Part shown: one piece after another, positions 13,030 through 22,115 of the stretch
Numbering within the stretch: the stretch's first letter is position 1
Layout: each line of letters opens with the position of its first letter
Assembly (NCBI GenBank): GCA_028689025.1
Contig: JAQTXA010000002.1
Coordinates: 1 to 64,000, forward strand
Reading direction: 5' to 3'
Source: Aliarcobacter sp.
GTDB taxonomy: Bacteria > Campylobacterota > Campylobacteria > Campylobacterales > Arcobacteraceae
DNA length: 64,000 nucleotides
Program-made: the position numbers and the translations under genes
The notes under the pieces: generated by a model
Seen by the model: only the letters and a program-made list of their open reading frames with translations
Database searches by the model: none
What the model was told of the DNA's origin: nothing

Positions 13030-13764
13030 ATGAAATTAGATGAAAATCAATTAAAAGAGTTCCAAGAAAATGGATTTTTAATCCTTAAAAATTTTGCAGA
13101 TTCAGCACTTTGTGATGAGATTTTAGAAAAAGCTAAAATTCATTTAGAAAATAAAACTGCTCCAATTGAAACTGAACAAGAGTATATGCAGTTGGATAAA
13201 GACAAAATAACTGTAAGAAGACTAAGACAAGTTTATGATAGAGAAGAAGTTTTCCAAAAATGGATGACAAATGAGAAAATCAGACCTATTTTAAAACAAG
13301 TTTTAAATGATACACCTGTTTTAACTTTAGCTCATCATAACTCTATTATGACAAAGTTACCACACGAAAGTACTAGAACTTTTTGGCACCAAGATAGACG
13401 TTATTGGAATTTTGAAAATAATGATTTAGTTTCTGTTTGGTTAGCTTTAGGCGATGAATATTTAGATAATGGACTTTTAGAGTTTATACCAGCTTCTCAT
13501 AAACTAAATTTAGAAAAAGACCAATTTGATGAAGTGAGCAATTTCAAAGATGAACATCCAAAAAATCTTGAAATCATAAAAAATAAAGTTCATGCAAATT
13601 TACAAAAAGGTGATGTTGTTTTATTTCACTGTAAAACTCTTCATCATGCAAGTAAAAATAATAGTGATAAAGCAAAAATCTCTTTTGTTTACACTGTTCG
13701 AGCAAGTTCTAACAAACCTATAAACAACACAAGAAGTGACTTTAAAGAGATAATTCTTGACTGA
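13030..13764 (+). CDS. phytanoyl-CoA dioxygenase (PhyH) family oxygenase
   Basis: A 244-residue Fe(II)/2-oxoglutarate oxygenase of the PhyH family. Iron ligands fit His120-x-Asp122 in FWHQDRRYW and a distal His (205 or 206) in CKTLHHAS. The family opening ENGFLILKNF and the stretch NGLLEFIPASHK are clear. PhyH enzymes hydroxylate alpha carbons or other small molecules. Its ribosome site is AAGAGA. The last 8 bases overlap the TTG start of tex. With the preceding oxygenase and the SnoaL-like protein it may act in a small pathway, but no substrate can be named. Confidence 0.82.
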   Translation: MKLDENQLKEFQENGFLILKNFADSALCDEILEKAKIHLENKTAPIETEQEYMQLDKDKITVRRLRQVYDREEVFQKWMTNEKIRPILKQVLNDTPVLTLAHHNSIMTKLPHESTRTFWHQDRRYWNFENNDLVSVWLALGDEYLDNGLLEFIPASHKLNLEKDQFDEVSNFKDEHPKNLEIIKNKVHANLQKGDVVLFHCKTLHHASKNNSDKAKISFVYTVRASSNKPINNTRSDFKEIILD

Positions 13765-15868
13765 TAATTTAATAGCACTTTTAGAAGAGAAAACCTCATT
13801 TTCTAAAGGTGTTATTCAAAACATACTAAAACTTTTAGAAGATGGTTGTACGATTCCTTTTATTGCTCGATATAGAAAAGATTTAACTTCAAATGCTACA
13901 GATGAACAACTTCGTGATTTTGAAGATATATATAATTATTCACTAAAACTTCTAACTAGAAAAGAAGAGATTATCTGCATTTTAAAAGAAAGAAATTTTT
14001 TAGATGAAAAAATCAAAGCTCATATAAATAGTGCTACAACTTTACAAATGTTGGAAGATATTTATGCACCTTTTAAAGATAAAAAATCTTCAAGAACATC
14101 AACTGCTATTGAAAATGGACTTGAGCCACTTGCAAATATTATTCAATCAATGAAATACTCACTTGATGAAATAAACCAAAAAGCAAAACAGTTTATAAAT
14201 AAAGAAGTTACAACTGTTCAAGATGCAATAAATGGAGCTAGTGATATTATCGCTCAAAGATATGCCGATGATTTCAGAACAAAAGAAGTGATTAGAAATA
14301 CAGTTTTAAACTATGGAATTTTAGAGAGTAAAAAAACAAAAACATTTAATGAAAATGGTGTTTATGTAAGTGTTGCAAATGTAAGTGAAAAAGTGAAATA
14401 TATAAAATCACATAGATTCCTAGCAATCAACAGAGCTGTAAATGAAAAAGAACTAACAGTAAAAATCGAAGTTGATGAAAACTATATTTTAGAAAATATA
14501 AAAAAATATAAAATCCCATCAAGTGCATCAAGTTCAAAAGAGTTAGTTTTTGAAGCCTATAAAGATGGACTAAAAAGATTACTTCTTCCAAGTCTAAAAA
14601 GAGAAGCTCTAAGTGAACTAAAAGAAAAAGCTTCAAGTGAAGCAATCACACTTTTTGGGAAAAATCTAAAAGAACTACTTCTAACTCCTCCACTTGTAAA
14701 TCAAGTGATTTTAGGAATGGATCCTGGCTTTGTAAGTGGATGTAAATTAGCTGTTATTGATGAAAATGGAAACTATCTAGCTTCAAATGTGATTTATCCC
14801 ACAAAACCAAAAGAGGATTTTGTAAACTCTTCGAAAGTAGTTTTAGAGCTTATCAAAAAATACAAAATCAACTCAATTGCTATTGGAAATGGAACAGCTT
14901 CACAAGAGACAGCAGCATTTATAGTAAAACTAATAAATGAAAATAACTTAGATATAAAATACGCAGTTGTTAGTGAAATAGGTGCTAGTGTTTACTCAGC
15001 TTCAAAAATAGCCATGATGGAGTATCCAAATCTAGACGTTACAATAAGAGGTGCAATCTCAATAGCTCAAAGACTTCGTGATCCAATGGCAGCTTTGGTA
15101 AAAATAGACCCAAAATCACTAGGAATTGGACAATATCAACACGATGTAAATCAAAAAGAGTTAAGCCAAAAACTAGAAAATGTAACAGTGGATTTAGTAA
15201 ATAAAGTAGGAGTTGACATAAACTCAGCTTCATATAAAATACTATCTTTTATCTCAGGAATCTCAGAAAAACTAGCCCTTAATATAATAGAACACAAAGA
15301 AAAAATCAAAAACTTCAAAACAAAAGCAGAACTTCTAAAAGTAAAAGGAATAGGAGCAAAAGCTTATGAGCAAAGTGTAGGATTTTTAAGAATCAAAGAT
15401 GGAAAAAGTATTTTAGACAATACAGCCATTCACCCAGAAAACTACGATGTAGTTGAAAAACTGCAAAAAAAATACAAAATAGAAGAGATAAAAGATAGTG
15501 ATATTGAAACTATTTCAAAAGAGCTAAACTGCCCTATTTTACTTCTAAAAGATATAATCGCAGAACTTCTAAAACCTGGTTACGATGTAAGAAGTGAATT
15601 TGACACAGTAGAGTTTTCAAAAGATATAAAAACAATAGAAGACCTAAAAGAAGGTTTCATAATAAGTGGAGTGGTAAGAAACATCACAGACTTCGGAGCT
15701 TTTGTAGATATTGGTCTAAAAAATGATGGATTAATTCACATCTCACAAATAAGTGAAAAAAGAATCTCTCATCCAATGGATGTATTAAGTATAAATCAAC
15801 AGTTGAAAAATATAAAAGTTATTAGTATTGATTTAGAGAAACAGAGGGTTGGCTTGAGTTTGAAATAG
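13757..15868 (+). CDS. tex: Tex-family RNA-binding transcription accessory protein
   Basis: A 703-residue Tex protein with all expected parts: the N-terminal helical region with TIPFIARYRKD, a YqgF/RNase H-like domain (VILGMDPGFVSGCKLAV, about 310-440), helix-hairpin-helix region (about 470-560) and a C-terminal S1 domain (about 635-703, ending LEKQRVGLSLK). Tex binds nucleic acid and RNA polymerase. The start is TTG inside the end of the upstream oxygenase gene; no better start is seen. Only one base separates its stop from that of the convergent RhuM-like gene. Identity is very strong. Confidence 0.93.
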   Translation: MTDNLIALLEEKTSFSKGVIQNILKLLEDGCTIPFIARYRKDLTSNATDEQLRDFEDIYNYSLKLLTRKEEIICILKERNFLDEKIKAHINSATTLQMLEDIYAPFKDKKSSRTSTAIENGLEPLANIIQSMKYSLDEINQKAKQFINKEVTTVQDAINGASDIIAQRYADDFRTKEVIRNTVLNYGILESKKTKTFNENGVYVSVANVSEKVKYIKSHRFLAINRAVNEKELTVKIEVDENYILENIKKYKIPSSASSSKELVFEAYKDGLKRLLLPSLKREALSELKEKASSEAITLFGKNLKELLLTPPLVNQVILGMDPGFVSGCKLAVIDENGNYLASNVIYPTKPKEDFVNSSKVVLELIKKYKINSIAIGNGTASQETAAFIVKLINENNLDIKYAVVSEIGASVYSASKIAMMEYPNLDVTIRGAISIAQRLRDPMAALVKIDPKSLGIGQYQHDVNQKELSQKLENVTVDLVNKVGVDINSASYKILSFISGISEKLALNIIEHKEKIKNFKTKAELLKVKGIGAKAYEQSVGFLRIKDGKSILDNTAIHPENYDVVEKLQKKYKIEEIKDSDIETISKELNCPILLLKDIIAELLKPGYDVRSEFDTVEFSKDIKTIEDLKEGFIISGVVRNITDFGAFVDIGLKNDGLIHISQISEKRISHPMDVLSINQQLKNIKVISIDLEKQRVGLSLK

Positions 15869-15869
15869 A

Positions 15870-16733
15870 TTATTTTAGTTTTTCTAAAATATCTAAACTT
15901 TCAAATTCAAACTTTGAAAAAGCAAACCACTTTTTACCCAAATCTTTTATACTAGCTCCTAAATGATAAATCTCTTTTTTATCAATTATCAAAAATCTAT
16001 CATGAGAGTTTTTAAACTCTCTTAGTTCTATATTTTTATATTGCAATTGATACTTTTGAAAATCCAGTTTTAACTGTTTTGTAATAGTTTTTGTATAAAT
16101 TTTTACTTTTATACTTGCATATTTAGAAAAAAGAATAAATACACTTTCGTCTATATAATTATCTATCAAAACTATCTCTTCTTTCGCAAGTTTTAACAAA
16201 TCATTTGCAAAAATATAAGCATCAAATATTTGACCGTCATAAAATATCCCTTGTTTAGGATTTAAACTATTATTTTGAATTTGTGACATTATATACTTAA
16301 CATCTTCTTCTAAAAGTGTTAATCTCTTTTGAGTGATTTTCTCTTTATTTATTACATAACCATTTAATATATAATTTTTTAAAGTCTTTGTAGCCCATTG
16401 TCTAAACCTAACACCTTTTTTTGATTTGACTCTATATCCAACTGATATTATTACATCTAAATTATAATACTCAATTTCTCGATGAACTTCTCTTCCTCCT
16501 TCATTTTGAAGTGTCGCAAAATTTGCGACAGTTGAGACTTTTTCTAATTCTTCTTCTTTAAAAATATTACTTAAATGTTTACCAATAGTTTTTATATCTC
16601 TGTCAAAAAGTTCGGATAACTGCTGTCTATTTAACCAAACTGTTTCATTATCTAGTGAAACTTTTAATTCTAATTCCCCATCGTTATAGATTATGATGTC
16701 TGATTTATTATCATTAGTTATTAACTCTTGCAT
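15870..16733 (-). CDS. RhuM-family protein with C-terminal phospholipase-D-like domain
   Basis: A 287-residue protein. The N-terminal half carries the RhuM pattern: VWLNRQQLSELFDRD (a helix-turn-helix-like segment, 32-46), then the Asn-Leu-Asp-Val-Ile-Ile-Ser-Val-Gly-Tyr-Arg-Val core and the FRQWAT motif (110-115). A linker helix follows. The C-terminal third (about 165-275) resembles a PLD-type fold with HDRFLIID at 244-251, an H-x-R-x4-D variant of HxKx4D, in which Lys is replaced by Arg. RhuM proteins occur in pathogenicity and defence islands; their function is poorly known. It is divergent from the SIR2-NB-ARC gene and shares its 175-base promoter region. A paired role is inference. Confidence 0.75.
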   Translation of the reverse strand: MQELITNDNKSDIIIYNDGELELKVSLDNETVWLNRQQLSELFDRDIKTIGKHLSNIFKEEELEKVSTVANFATLQNEGGREVHREIEYYNLDVIISVGYRVKSKKGVRFRQWATKTLKNYILNGYVINKEKITQKRLTLLEEDVKYIMSQIQNNSLNPKQGIFYDGQIFDAYIFANDLLKLAKEEIVLIDNYIDESVFILFSKYASIKVKIYTKTITKQLKLDFQKYQLQYKNIELREFKNSHDRFLIIDKKEIYHLGASIKDLGKKWFAFSKFEFESLDILEKLK

Positions 16734-16908: not shown

Positions 16909-19755
16909 ATGCCTCATAACTTGCCACAATCTTTAATAGATGCTATAAAAAATAACAATTTAATTCCCTTTGTTGGTGCTGGTGTATCAATGGGAATTAA
17001 AGATATTAAAGATATCAATAATCCTATATTTAAAAGTTGGACAAATAGTCTACTTGATGCTGTTGTAATGTTAAATAATGAACAAAAGACAAAAGAAGGA
17101 ACTGCAATAAAAGCTCTATTGGATTTACCAGATGTAGATTATTTAGAAACAGCATCAAAAATTCATAAATATTTAAATAGTCATTGGAACAAATATCTTA
17201 CTCAAACATTTGATAAAAACTTTCAAAATATCAATCAAAATAGTTTAGAAATTCCAAAAGAAATTCTAAAAATTAATAATCTTTTAATTACAACCAATTA
17301 TGATAATGTACTTAAATGGGCTTGTGAAAATAAAAATGATTTAGTTGAATGGGATAAAAAAGCTCTTGCAGGTCAAGTAGATTCGTTAAAACAAACTCCA
17401 CCAAAACAAACTATTTGGTATTTACATGGAAAAATATCAAATCCCGATGATATTGTATTTACAAAAGAAAGTTATGAAGAAACATACAAAGAGAATTCAG
17501 GAGCGATTGAAGTTTTAAAATCTTATTTACTTACAAAAAGTTTTATATTTTGTGGTTTTAGTTTAGATGACCCATATATCAAAATGCAACTTGAAAAACT
17601 AAAAGGAATTTTTGGAACAAATCTTTCAAAACACTATATGATTATTCAAAAAGGGCAACAAAAAGATTTTTCATATCTTGGAGATATTCATTTTTTAGAA
17701 GTTACAGATTATGATAAAGATTATTTAGCTTTATTAAAAAAAATTAATCAATATAAAACTTCAAATCCTATATTAGCAACACAAACTCCATCTGAAATTA
17801 ATACAAAAAAACAATTTTTTAATGTTCCTTTTGAATCAAAGAAAGATGATGTAGTAGGGATTGAAGGAAAACTAGAAGAAATACACGATAAATTAAACCA
17901 ATCAAAAAAATTACGTATTGGTCAAGTTGCAAAATTTGAAGGCATGGGTGGACTTGGAAAAACTCAACTTGCAGTTGAATATGCTCATAAATATAAGGAC
18001 TCTTTTGAAAATGGCGTTTTATGGCTTACTATGGATCAAGATTTAGATGAACAATTACTTACTTTTGGAAAAGAGAATAACTTAGTTAATCAAAATCTTG
18101 ATATTAAAGAGCAACTTAATGGAATTAAATATCAACTAAAATCATTTGAAAATATGCTTTTGATTTATGATAATACAAATAAACAAGAAGATATAGAACA
18201 AGATTTTTTACCAAAATCAACTACAAATAAAATATTAATCACAACAAGAAATCCTATTCATGGATATACATTAATTGAACTTGAAACTTTAAATCTTGAA
18301 AATTCAAAAAAACTTTTAGAGATAGAATCAGGTAAAGCTATTCTTGATAGTGAAATTATATTTGTTGAAGAATTATGTGAAAAACTTGATGGTTTGCCAT
18401 TAGCTTTAGAAATGGCTGGAGCTTATGTAAAACATTTAAATTTATCTTGGGAAAAATATTTAAGTCTTTACAATAAACAAAATATTGAATTATTAAATAA
18501 ATCAAAACTTCCAGAGAGTTTTACAAAACATGAAAACAATATTGCAAATACTCTAATTATTAGTCAACAAATAATAGATGAAACTGAAAAACTAAAAGAG
18601 ATACTTAATCTTCTAAGTTATGGTGCAAATGAACCAATAGATGATGAATTCATAACTAAACTTTTATCTTGTGATGATACAGATATAATTGAAGCTATTT
18701 CAATAGGTAAAAAATTAAAATACATCAAAGAATCTTCGCAAGGATATACTATCCATAGACTTCTAAAAGAAGTATGGAAATCTCAAGAAGAGTTAGAGCA
18801 AACTTTTATAGATAGTGTTGCAACAAATTTAGCAAATTATATTTATGAAATAAAAGATGAATTCTTAAACTTATCAGAACTTGAGAAATCAAATCTATTT
18901 TCAGAACAATGGATAAATCATTTACAAAATAATGATACAAAAGCTATCTTAATTGCGTATAGAGCTTATCTTAATTATTATAAAGGCGATTTTAGAAATG
19001 GATTGAAAATTGTAAATATTGCAGAAGAAATAGTAGAAAAAAAAGATTCTAAAGAGTATGCAGAGATACTTTTATATCAAGGTAGTTTAAATAGAGGTTT
19101 AAAAGAGTATGAAGTTGCTAAAGATTTTTATAAACAATCTTATGAAATATACACAAGACTATATCCAAATCAAGACAATTCTGATATCATAGTTTGCTTA
19201 AATAATTTAGGAGATGTTTGGTCAATGACTAACAATTTTGATAAAGCTTTAAATTTTCATTCCCATTCTCTTGAAATGAGTAAAAGACTTTACCCTAATC
19301 AAAACCATCTATTTATTGCAAGAGCTTTACATAATTTAGGGTCAATTTGGGAATTTAGAGATCCTACAAAATCTTTAAATTTTTATAATCAATCTTTTGA
19401 AATGTATAAGAAACTTTATCAGAACGAAGATCATCCTAATGTTTCAATTTCTTTAAATAATTTTGGATTTATTTGGAGAAATAAAGATTTTACAAAATCT
19501 TTAAATTTTTATAATCAATCTTTAGAAATGGCAAAGAGACTTTTTGATAATCAAGATCATCCTGATATAATCTTGCCAGTGATTAACTTAAGTATACACT
19601 TATGTAGAAATCCATTAACAAAGAAAAAAGGGTTGGATTTAATAAAAAAATATAAAAAAATTGTTACAAAACAAGAAGATAAACAAGAAATTGAAAATAT
19701 ACTAAAGAAATATGGCAATGTTGGAAGAGATAAGTCAAAAAGAAAAAGAAGATAA
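16909..19755 (+). CDS. SIR2 - NB-ARC - TPR protein, bacterial NLR-like (STAND) candidate anti-phage NTPase
   Basis: A 948-residue three-part protein. (1) SIR2-like domain, about 1-285: GAGVS (23-27), TTNYD (128-132, catalytic Asn130), LHG (172-174, catalytic His173) and CGFSLDDP (215-222); all expected NADase residues are present. (2) NB-ARC STAND NTPase, about 310-620: P-loop GMGGLGKT (345-352), Walker B LLIYD (417-421), TTR (445-447), GLPLAL (495-500) and an MHD-like TIHRLL (614-619). (3) C-terminal TPR array, about 680-890, with 42-43-residue kinesin-light-chain-type units marked by LYPNQ-like turns at 751, 794, 836 and 878. In known systems such proteins sense a phage component through the C-terminal region, oligomerise, and deplete NAD+. 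That job is inference here. The tail is very basic (KSKRKRR). The divergent neighbour is RhuM-like. Confidence 0.88.
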   Translation: MPHNLPQSLIDAIKNNNLIPFVGAGVSMGIKDIKDINNPIFKSWTNSLLDAVVMLNNEQKTKEGTAIKALLDLPDVDYLETASKIHKYLNSHWNKYLTQTFDKNFQNINQNSLEIPKEILKINNLLITTNYDNVLKWACENKNDLVEWDKKALAGQVDSLKQTPPKQTIWYLHGKISNPDDIVFTKESYEETYKENSGAIEVLKSYLLTKSFIFCGFSLDDPYIKMQLEKLKGIFGTNLSKHYMIIQKGQQKDFSYLGDIHFLEVTDYDKDYLALLKKINQYKTSNPILATQTPSEINTKKQFFNVPFESKKDDVVGIEGKLEEIHDKLNQSKKLRIGQVAKFEGMGGLGKTQLAVEYAHKYKDSFENGVLWLTMDQDLDEQLLTFGKENNLVNQNLDIKEQLNGIKYQLKSFENMLLIYDNTNKQEDIEQDFLPKSTTNKILITTRNPIHGYTLIELETLNLENSKKLLEIESGKAILDSEIIFVEELCEKLDGLPLALEMAGAYVKHLNLSWEKYLSLYNKQNIELLNKSKLPESFTKHENNIANTLIISQQIIDETEKLKEILNLLSYGANEPIDDEFITKLLSCDDTDIIEAISIGKKLKYIKESSQGYTIHRLLKEVWKSQEELEQTFIDSVATNLANYIYEIKDEFLNLSELEKSNLFSEQWINHLQNNDTKAILIAYRAYLNYYKGDFRNGLKIVNIAEEIVEKKDSKEYAEILLYQGSLNRGLKEYEVAKDFYKQSYEIYTRLYPNQDNSDIIVCLNNLGDVWSMTNNFDKALNFHSHSLEMSKRLYPNQNHLFIARALHNLGSIWEFRDPTKSLNFYNQSFEMYKKLYQNEDHPNVSISLNNFGFIWRNKDFTKSLNFYNQSLEMAKRLFDNQDHPDIILPVINLSIHLCRNPLTKKKGLDLIKKYKKIVTKQEDKQEIENILKKYGNVGRDKSKRKRR
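19365..19523 (+). repeat. tandem TPR coding repeat with 33-base identical segment
   Basis: The same 33 bases occur at 19365-19397 and 19491-19523, exactly 126 bases (42 codons) apart and in the same frame. They encode the TKSLNFYNQS helix of consecutive TPR units. The surrounding codons differ, so the identical block points to a recent duplication or gene conversion within the array. Confidence 0.85.
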
Positions 19756-20045
19756 AAGATTATTGCTTGGTAATAAAAAATCAATAAAAGAAGTAATATC
19801 AAATCAAAAAATGTGAGCATTTTCAAAATAGCGTTAAGAAAAATTTATATAAATTCGTAAAGAAATTTGAACTGTCTGAGACGGAGGTACGGAGTCGAGT
19901 TTTCTCAAAGAGAGTGCAAGCACAGCAAATTTTAGAATTTCTATAAATTTTTTAGCTATTTTAAAACTTCGCGAACGCTTTTCTTTTGTTTCTTTTCTTT
20001 ACTAAAAAGAAAAGAAAAAAGCATCCTTACTCAGAAATCCTTAAA
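19756..20045. other. palindrome-rich non-coding stretch of higher G+C, possible dispersed repeat
   Basis: No gene fits in these 290 bases. The middle part (about 19865-19980) is much richer in G+C than its surroundings and full of short inverted repeats: GTCT-G-AGAC near 19876, TCTC-AAA-GAGA near 19903, TGCAAGCA near 19916 and TTCGCGAA near 19968. It ends in a purine/pyrimidine hairpin at 19989-20017. It separates two convergent genes. It resembles an intergenic repeat or mobile remnant, but only comparison with the rest of the genome can show this. Confidence 0.45.
19989..20017. terminator. bidirectional hairpin between the NLR-like gene and the EAL gene
   Basis: TTTCTTTTCTTT (19989-20000) and AAAGAAAAGAAA (20006-20017) form a perfect 12-base-pair stem with loop ACTAA. 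It contains few G-C pairs, but its place between convergent genes fits a transcription terminator. Confidence 0.5.
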
Positions 20046-22115
20046 TTAAATCAAATGTTCCGGTTCATGGAACAAATAACCTTGTGAAAAATCTATTCCC
20101 AAAGACGCTACAATATCTTGAACCTCTTGGCAATGAACAAACTCTGCAACAGTTTGAATCCCAAGAACTTTTGCAAAGTTTACAATAGTCGAAACTGTTA
20201 ATCTAATATTCTCATTTATATGAATATTTTTTATCAAAGAACCATCTATTTTTAGAAAATCTACATTTAATTTTATAATATACTCAAAATTTGAATATCC
20301 AGTTCCAAAGTCATCAATAGCAACTTTACAACCAAGAGCTTTTGCTTTTCTTATAAAATCTCCAACCTCTTCAAACTTCTCAATTCCTTCAGATTCAACA
20401 ATCTCTAAAATCACACTATTTGCAATATTTGTTTCCATTAATTTTGTGAATAAAAAATTAACAGTTTTTTCATTTTTAATATCTTCAATCATTAAATTTA
20501 TAGAAAATGTAATATCTTTATCTTTGAAATATTCACAAGACTTTTCAATCATTTTATTTGTCATCAAAGGATAAAGTCTAGCTCTTTTTGCATGTTCTAA
20601 AAATATAAAAGGTGATAAGATTTTCCCATTTGGAAGTTTCATTCTCATCAAGGTTTCATATTTAATTTCTTTAGTTTTATTATTAATGATTTTTTGACCA
20701 TACATCAAAATATTATCATCTTTTAATGCTTGTTTAATTTCTTTTGTTAGTTCAACATTTCTTTCTAAATCTCTAAATTCTGGCATCTCTTCATTGAATA
20801 TTCCAATATCAATATTTATCTTTTTTGCCCAATATAGTGCAATTTCTGCATGAGCTAATAGTTTCTCATTATTATCTGCTATTCCTATTGTAAAAGAGAT
20901 ATCAAAACTATTATCCTCTACTGTAAAACTTTCCCTATCACATAAGATATTAAGATTTTCACAAGTCTTATGCAATTCTTTTATTTTTAAATTCCCAAAA
21001 GCCATAAAGGCAAATATATCTCCAGAAATTCTATAAACGTTTAAGTTTGCACTTTTAAATATTAATAACCTTTTTGCAAATCCTTTTAATATTTTATCTC
21101 CAATTTCTAAACCATAAGAGTTATTTATATCTTTGAATCTGTCAATATTTATGATTGCAAGTTTAGGATTAACGCTATTTTTTAAATCATTCAAAAGTTT
21201 TTGTCTATTTGGCAAAGAGGTTAGTTCATCGGTAAATTGTTCATAAATTAATTTGTCTTTTTCAAATATTGATGTTATGTCATTTCTAATGGCAATGTAT
21301 TCAATAATATTATTGTTTTTATCTAATATTGGAATTATTGTTGATTCAACATAATATGCTTGTCCATTTTTCTTTCTGTTTTTAACTATTCCTTTGAATA
21401 TTTTTTTATTACTAATTGTTTTCCACAACTCATAAAAGAACTCTTTTTGAGTATCTGGATGTCTAATAATATTATGATGTTGTCCAATTAATTCATCTTT
21501 TGTATAACCTGAAATCTCACAAAATTTATCATTAACATATGTAATAACACCATTCAAATCTGTTTTAGAAACAATTGAACTTTCATCAAGCGCTTTTTTA
21601 TATTCATCTAATAGAACTAATGATTCTAATAAATTTTTATTATCCTCATTACTTAATAATAAAGTTTCATTGATTTTTTGAATATAACTCTCTTTTTGCT
21701 CCAATAATTGTTTTTGCTCTTTTATCTCTTTTTCAAAAATTTTTATTGGTTCGAGATTTTTCCAAATAATTTGTAATATTGTTTTATCTTCAATATCTAT
21801 TACATTTAAATTAACTTCTACTAAAAAAGTTTTATTATCAAGTGTCTTATGTAACCATTCAAAACTATGAGTACCTAGCTTATAACAAAGTTCTATCATT
21901 TTGTCAGCTTTTATTGATGAGAGTTCACCATCAGGTTGATATTCAGGAGATATTTGAGAGGGATGTACTAAAAAAAGTTCATTCTTTGAACTCATATTTA
22001 AAAGCTTCAATGCAGATAAATTTGCATCAATAAACAAATAACCTTCCATCAGAAGAATTGGTTCTGAGATATTATCAAAGATATTTTCATAATAAGAAAT
22101 ATTTTTAGTCATCAA
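20046..22115 (-). CDS. PAS-PAS-GGDEF-EAL protein, probable cyclic di-GMP phosphodiesterase
   Basis: A 689-residue soluble signalling protein. Order: PAS-like domain (about 8-130), coiled segment (about 135-175), a second PAS domain with NDKFCEISGYTKDELIGQHHNIIRHP (aerotaxis-receptor-like; about 180-290), GGDEF domain (about 295-450) and EAL domain (about 460-689). The GGDEF motif is degraded (SGDIF), so cyclase activity is unlikely. The EAL domain keeps Glu487 (ETL), the Asn and Glu ligands (SINLM, EIVESE), DDFGTG (601-606) and the late Glu658, which fits hydrolysis of cyclic di-GMP. No membrane helix is seen. The PAS domains may sense redox state or oxygen. Confidence 0.85.
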   Translation of the reverse strand: MMTKNISYYENIFDNISEPILLMEGYLFIDANLSALKLLNMSSKNELFLVHPSQISPEYQPDGELSSIKADKMIELCYKLGTHSFEWLHKTLDNKTFLVEVNLNVIDIEDKTILQIIWKNLEPIKIFEKEIKEQKQLLEQKESYIQKINETLLLSNEDNKNLLESLVLLDEYKKALDESSIVSKTDLNGVITYVNDKFCEISGYTKDELIGQHHNIIRHPDTQKEFFYELWKTISNKKIFKGIVKNRKKNGQAYYVESTIIPILDKNNNIIEYIAIRNDITSIFEKDKLIYEQFTDELTSLPNRQKLLNDLKNSVNPKLAIINIDRFKDINNSYGLEIGDKILKGFAKRLLIFKSANLNVYRISGDIFAFMAFGNLKIKELHKTCENLNILCDRESFTVEDNSFDISFTIGIADNNEKLLAHAEIALYWAKKINIDIGIFNEEMPEFRDLERNVELTKEIKQALKDDNILMYGQKIINNKTKEIKYETLMRMKLPNGKILSPFIFLEHAKRARLYPLMTNKMIEKSCEYFKDKDITFSINLMIEDIKNEKTVNFLFTKLMETNIANSVILEIVESEGIEKFEEVGDFIRKAKALGCKVAIDDFGTGYSNFEYIIKLNVDFLKIDGSLIKNIHINENIRLTVSTIVNFAKVLGIQTVAEFVHCQEVQDIVASLGIDFSQGYLFHEPEHLI

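Follow-up and report, generated by a model that had tools for sequence, protein, structure and literature searches.

Plant NLRs and APAF-1 use the NB-ARC (AP-ATPase) domain as their switch, and the tested bacterial NLR-like systems that we found in the literature have NACHT or Avs-type switches. In Avs5 (AVAST type 5), a single chain, of 768-833 residues in the solved structures, carries an N-terminal SIR2 NADase, then a STAND NTPase, and the sensor at its C-terminus (PMC12931631; PDB 9nc9, 9jap). The bNACHT proteins follow an effector - switch - sensor logic (PMC12169576), with TIR or SIR2 effectors occurring among them (reviewed in PMC10952713), and the fungal PLP-1 (patatin - NB-ARC - TPR) has an NB-ARC switch and TPR repeats behind an exchangeable N-terminal enzyme (PMC12881547). 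By SIR2 fold and sequence, the nearest proteins to the one described here are ThsA (Thoeris), DSR2, KomC and FAM118B. To our knowledge, none of these four carries an NB-ARC-TPR module.

Here, we propose that a single gene in a 64,000-nucleotide stretch of Aliarcobacter DNA (the window, meaning the whole stretch analysed) encodes a single-protein NLR-like immune receptor, of SIR2 - NB-ARC - TPR architecture, directed against phages or other invading elements. We give this reading a probability of about 0.75. We consider it well supported by homology, mobility and genomic context. Some NB-ARC-TPR proteins are regulators (AfsR), so that membership of the class is by itself no proof of immunity. 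The features on which the argument draws are collected in Table 1.

Table 1. Features of the SIR2-NB-ARC-TPR locus, with positions in the window
Feature	Position	Strand	Basis
tex, conserved left border of variable site	13757..15868	+	Pfam, comparison with relatives
RhuM-family gene, PADLOC candidate PDC-S05, divergent neighbour, same insertion	15870..16733	-	Pfam, PADLOC
SIR2 - NB-ARC - TPR protein, single gene, 948 aa	16909..19755	+	ORF and Pfam
SIR2 effector domain, residues 1-285	16909..17763	+	Pfam SIR2_2, invariant residues, fold model
Catalytic N130, D132, H173	N130 17296-17298; H173 17425-17427	+	Within SIR2 domain
NB-ARC and winged-helix part of switch, residues 305-640	17821..18828	+	Pfam NB-ARC 319-531, solved-structure matches
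P-loop	17941-17964	+	Within NB-ARC
Kinesin-light-chain-type TPR sensor region, residues 718-935	19060..19713	+	TPR_12/TPR_10, DNA repeats, helical model
Short basic C-terminal tail GRDKSKRKRR	19714..19752	+	Echoed in PRTase-CE homologue
Repeated structured element between SIR2-NB-ARC-TPR gene and EAL gene	19808..20022	+	Repeat search, covariation
PAS-GGDEF-EAL gene, conserved right border of variable site	20046..22115	-	Pfam, comparison with relatives

The reading frame is intact from an ATG start, and the three-domain protein that it encodes, with its motifs undamaged, is real and not a chance assembly of matches. A first-pass annotation had named the relevant profiles as a check on its domain calls, and all of them score over the Pfam curated cut-offs: SIR2_2 at residues 125-253 (E 1.4e-26), NB-ARC (E 1.6e-15; 57.5 bits against a cut-off of 23.5), TPR_12 (E 3.8e-28) and TPR_10 (E 7e-13). 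Its motif positions were likewise all correct when checked residue by residue. The SIR2 part carries GAGVS (23-27), N130 within TTNYD (128-132) and H173 within LHG, and the NB-ARC feature set is complete, with the P-loop GMGGLGKT (345-352), Walker B LLIYD (417-421), TTR (445-447), GLPLAL (495-500) and an MHD-like IHRL (615-618), set between an N-terminal effector and C-terminal repeats. The predicted 42-43-residue TPR units agree with the DNA, in which positions 19124-19602 hold four units spaced by 129, 126 and 126 nt; at just 61-72% DNA likeness between units, a recent duplication is ruled out. Their assignment to the kinesin-light-chain type also agrees with the solved structures, among which kinesin light chain is the main match to the TPR part.

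In phmmer searches of solved structures, the switch matches the plant receptors NRC1, ZAR1 and Roq1 and the bacterial regulator AfsR. The same annotation had cited Avs5 and related proteins as precedents, but the data do not support placing the protein in Avs5: no Avs5 chain is among its phmmer matches at E up to 1, though Avs5 structures exist, and PADLOC gives no Avs match, from a library that may not include Avs5 models. A full-length AlphaFold2 model (ten sequences) gave an all-helical TPR region with pLDDT mostly 70-95, and an NB-ARC part so poor (pLDDT mostly 23-45) as to be unusable. We therefore restricted the fold search to the SIR2 domain, and what we say of the NB-ARC fold and of any oligomer rests on sequence.

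What does the genomic setting say of such a protein? Compared at the tex site alone, the gene is an insertion at a site that holds other defence-type genes in relatives (genomes are given by our handles, G000 being that of the window). Two relatives have the site empty, with a tex-EAL gap of 11 bp in G021 and of under 50 bp in G006. On the same side of tex, G025 has an FRG gene (PDC-S15), which in G010 is split in two ORFs; G029 has a TIR-like gene, G017 a type IIG restriction-modification pair and G001 a weak SIR2-like gene accompanied by further small ORFs, and the genes of G004, G019 and G023 are without a match. The SIR2-like gene of G001 (L106, 1688-2746, minus strand) encodes 352 aa; its PADLOC SIR2 matches are weak (E 5e-8), and Pfam gives none. 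The RhuM-family neighbour in the window is a full-length PDC-S05 match (365 bits in PADLOC). A functional link between it and the receptor gene was considered and set aside, the two being divergently oriented and the RhuM gene being missing upstream of the Sulfuricurvum copy described below, so that we treat it as separate cargo. Relatives of the RhuM-family gene, up to 54% identical, occur on Bacteroides plasmids.

The distribution of the receptor gene is patchy. Some match to the protein occurs in 12 of the 104 genomes of the family, and E 1e-20 is passed in only 3 of 397 genomes sampled evenly across the phylum. The closest relative (L027) lies in a Sulfuricurvum MAG and is 74% identical, as against 56% for Tex between the same two hosts; its gene has 30.5% GC in a contig of 41% GC. 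This excess of identity over Tex, together with the deviant GC, indicates that the gene was transferred between genera. Directly upstream of the L027 gene lies a tyrosine-recombinase-like fragment, read by eye. A family confined to core housekeeping loci had been named beforehand as what would speak against an immune role; this gene, mobile and patchily distributed at a variable site, is not of that kind. No close relative was found on phage records or viral contigs, where the searches returned 27 distant SIR2 loci, none with NB-ARC or TPR matches. Further afield, plasmid pOC5aB of Pantoea ananatis (L220, 2501-5392) encodes a 963-aa protein of the SIR2 family whose SIR2 domain is 28% identical. 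It has a P-loop-like GIGGQGKS further downstream, its switch gets no score from the NB-ARC profile, and an integrase gene lies about 0.8 kb away.

Between the window and Sulfuricurvum copies, SIR2 is 74% identical, NB-ARC and winged-helix are each 82%, the helical part is 67% and TPR unit 1 is 57%; dN is 0.17, 0.11 and 0.13 for SIR2, NB-ARC and winged-helix, and 0.28 for the helical part with the first TPR unit. The sensor is thus the part diverging fastest between the two copies. L027 also lacks 126 residues that make up three TPR units of the window protein, in a contig that ends shortly past the gene. The dN/dS ratio of about 0.11-0.22, a rough figure with dS near saturation, suggests that the window copy is under purifying selection relative to the Sulfuricurvum copy.

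The modules have also changed partners. In G089, a homologue (L028) carries a PRTase-CE domain (PF24390) at the N-terminus of an NB-ARC-TPR protein; PADLOC assigns this effector as a retron III-A PRTase, the NB-ARC is 51% identical to that of the window protein, and the basic C-terminal tail GRNNSKRKKNK resembles the window's. A 424-aa integrase-like ORF, read by eye, lies about 3.3 kb upstream. A second SIR2-NB-ARC-TPR lineage is present in G061, G004, G019 and G090, and in G410 of another family; its members (L029-L032, L124) are 36-40% identical to the window protein in SIR2 and 22-29% in NB-ARC. The NB-ARC tree unites the window and Sulfuricurvum proteins with the PRTase-CE protein (97/96), and the second lineage forms a clade of its own (100/100). 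Since the switch of the window protein is nearest that of the PRTase-CE homologue and its SIR2 domain nearest the second lineage, effector and switch have been re-paired: either SIR2 was joined to NB-ARC-TPR repeatedly, or effectors were swapped on a shared chassis.

The second lineage has features of its own. All five of its proteins end in a conserved tail, KKG[RK][FY]CKD, after TPR arrays of widely varying length. In four genomes (L029-L032) a neighbour gene of 484-504 aa, SelO-like by eye, is common to all, mostly together with a 361-aa gene, from which it follows that this lineage has its own fixed chromosomal site, unlike that of the window. The window's genome also holds a second, divergent SIR2-NB-ARC-TPR gene (G000:C22, L033, 15975-18793, minus strand), in which a frame change splits SIR2 from NB-ARC; decay, assembly error or frameshifting are possible causes.

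Beside the window gene lies a repeat of about 170-215 nt, with further copies at G000:C5:28075-28262, C5:138751-138947 and C32:214592-214782. At E 1e-15, 27 of the 104 family genomes have it, with one to four copies per genome; the copies often lie where two genes converge, with variable cargo next to them. Over 24 copies, a 43-pair hairpin has 98.6% of its cells paired, and sliding it gives 54% at most; this control favours the hairpin because the alignment scored is also the one from which the structure came. Free of that dependence are the two-sided changes: 51 cells carry a change on both sides of the hairpin, against 14.6 in shuffles. Rfam offered no known RNA for the repeat, its one match being a chance one elsewhere. 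At the tex site, repeat and cargo occur together in G000, G029, G010, G004 and G019, partially in G025 and G020, and the repeat is missing from both empty sites. At a second site, next to a flavoprotein gene, the cargo differs, being DUF2971 (PDC-S31) in two cases, and the left end of the repeat is no more than about 12 bases away from the cargo stop codon. The repeat was rejected as an obligatory partner, as cargo occurs without it at tex (G001, G017, G023) and at the second site (G029, G010), and the repeat is also found without cargo. The simplest reading is a long, bidirectional terminator-like repeat, with a mobility element as another possibility. On a more novel but unlikely reading, the folded, non-coding repeat, its left end adjoining the cargo stop codon, would act as a cassette end or recombination handle in a so far undescribed route that moves single defence-type genes, such as this swappable NLR, in and out of fixed Arcobacteraceae sites.

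Turning to the effector, F21, G23, G25, S27, N130, D132, H173, G174, G216 and D221 are invariant across 14 SIR2 sequences, and by profile the solved structures matched are ThsA, DSR2, KomC, FAM118B and the SIR2-like protein of a HerA complex. The structure prediction that had been suggested, in which the lack of a SIR2 fold was to count against the proposal, bore out a fold like that of the defence NADases. A model of residues 1-292 (pLDDT 75, pTM 0.77) aligns with BcThsA at Z 24.0 over 255 residues (3.3 A), followed by KomC (Z 23.4), DSR2 (about 21, best 21.6), the two Avs5 structures (19.9 and 17.8), FAM118B (19.3) and SPARSA (18.8), with only 13.1 for a deacetylase-type sirtuin. The model thus assigns the domain to the fold class of defence NADases, not to that of deacetylase sirtuins. 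Defence by PaAvs5 requires N110 and D112 (PMC12931631), whose counterparts by motif are N130 and D132 of the window protein. Given this fold class, the kept catalytic residues and the PaAvs5 equivalents, NAD+ hydrolysis is the likely chemistry.

In light of these likenesses, how might the protein work? By analogy with the NLR/STAND family, the NB-ARC would hold ADP in the resting cell and keep the protein inactive, until a product of the invader, or a host protein that infection has altered, is bound by the TPR superhelix; nucleotide exchange may then open the switch and allow oligomerisation through NB-ARC. As in ThsA, DSR2, KomC and Avs5, the clustered SIR2 domains would hydrolyse NAD+ to nicotinamide and ADP-ribose, and the loss of NAD+ would stop the cell before the invader multiplies. 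The outcome is probably shutdown of the infected cell.

The trigger could be of another kind. The protein may defend against plasmids or further kinds of mobile element, or may guard a host factor, in place of sensing a phage structural protein directly: SPARSA, of the same SIR2 fold class, is placed by the literature next to anti-invader Argonautes (PMC10952713), and host DnaJ mediates the sensing of phage by bNACHT25 (PMC12169576). As most characterised relatives of this SIR2 class act on phage (PMC10952713), we hold this variant to be possible, at rather less than even odds. Use of NAD+ without depletion, for ADP-ribosylation of a target or for a signal molecule, is unlikely. The fold leaves the chemistry unsettled, and a sirtuin with 2'-O-acetyl-ADP-ribose also matches the model (Z 13.1), yet both by fold and by sequence the domain is closest to defence-system NADases, and it retains the catalytic N, D and H.

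Still less probable is a regulator of cell physiology, like AfsR or FxsT, with SIR2 acting on a host protein. The AfsR matches and the NCBIfam FxSxx_TPR model (NF040586, 141.9 bits) lean that way, but this score is far under the cut-off of 300, by which we reject an FxSxx-COOH TPR protein; Pfam finds no DNA-binding domain in the window protein, and a strain-variable insertion with horizontal transfer speaks against a regulatory role. A decayed or passenger gene that has lost its function is very improbable, for although the frameshifted second copy suggests that such genes may decay in this genome, the window copy keeps 948 open codons, all its motifs and the constrained dN/dS given above.

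If the immune reading is right, a compact bacterial SIR2-NB-ARC-TPR protein would serve as a simple model for how a plant-type resistosome drives a NADase. The homologues also form a series found in nature: one chassis bears either SIR2 or PRTase-CE, and between two genera it differs by three TPR units. On this series swaps could test whether the chassis alone sets the trigger and whether the number of TPR units sets specificity.

How, then, does the immune receptor proposed here relate to known systems? The PADLOC check envisaged at the outset turned out in part: the protein matches ThsA, LmuA and generic TPR models, and no complete system. Thoeris does not fit, as the ThsA models match the SIR2 part only and the neighbours are the tex, RhuM and EAL genes with no ThsB TIR gene; nor was any SLOG, macro or TIR partner gene found nearby with Pfam or PADLOC. 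DSR2, with SIR2 and a long helical sensor without an NTPase, is excluded by the NB-ARC, and Lamassu by an LmuA model that covers residues 8-296 (the SIR2 part) only and by the absence of an adjacent SMC gene. A literature search lying mostly outside subscription journals found no characterised SIR2-NB-ARC-TPR system. Within the literature and PADLOC library searched, the modules are known and their combination appears new as a candidate defence system.

The PRTase-CE homologue shares the chassis and the basic tail with the window protein and differs in its effector, whereas the second Arcobacter lineage shares the domain order and differs in NB-ARC clade, site and C-terminal tail. From PLP-1, which has the same switch and repeat classes, the window protein differs in having a SIR2 effector and in being a bacterial single gene. 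It shares its effector - switch - sensor logic with bNACHT proteins, but its switch is NB-ARC, with no Pfam NACHT match at E 0.01. Compared with Avs5, it is a longer chain, its switch is an NB-ARC that is plant NLR-like by sequence, its sensor is a kinesin-light-chain-type TPR, and it keeps the canonical HG where PaAvs5 has NG. Thus, the protein would work like Avs5 or bNACHT in its logic and appears to belong to neither.
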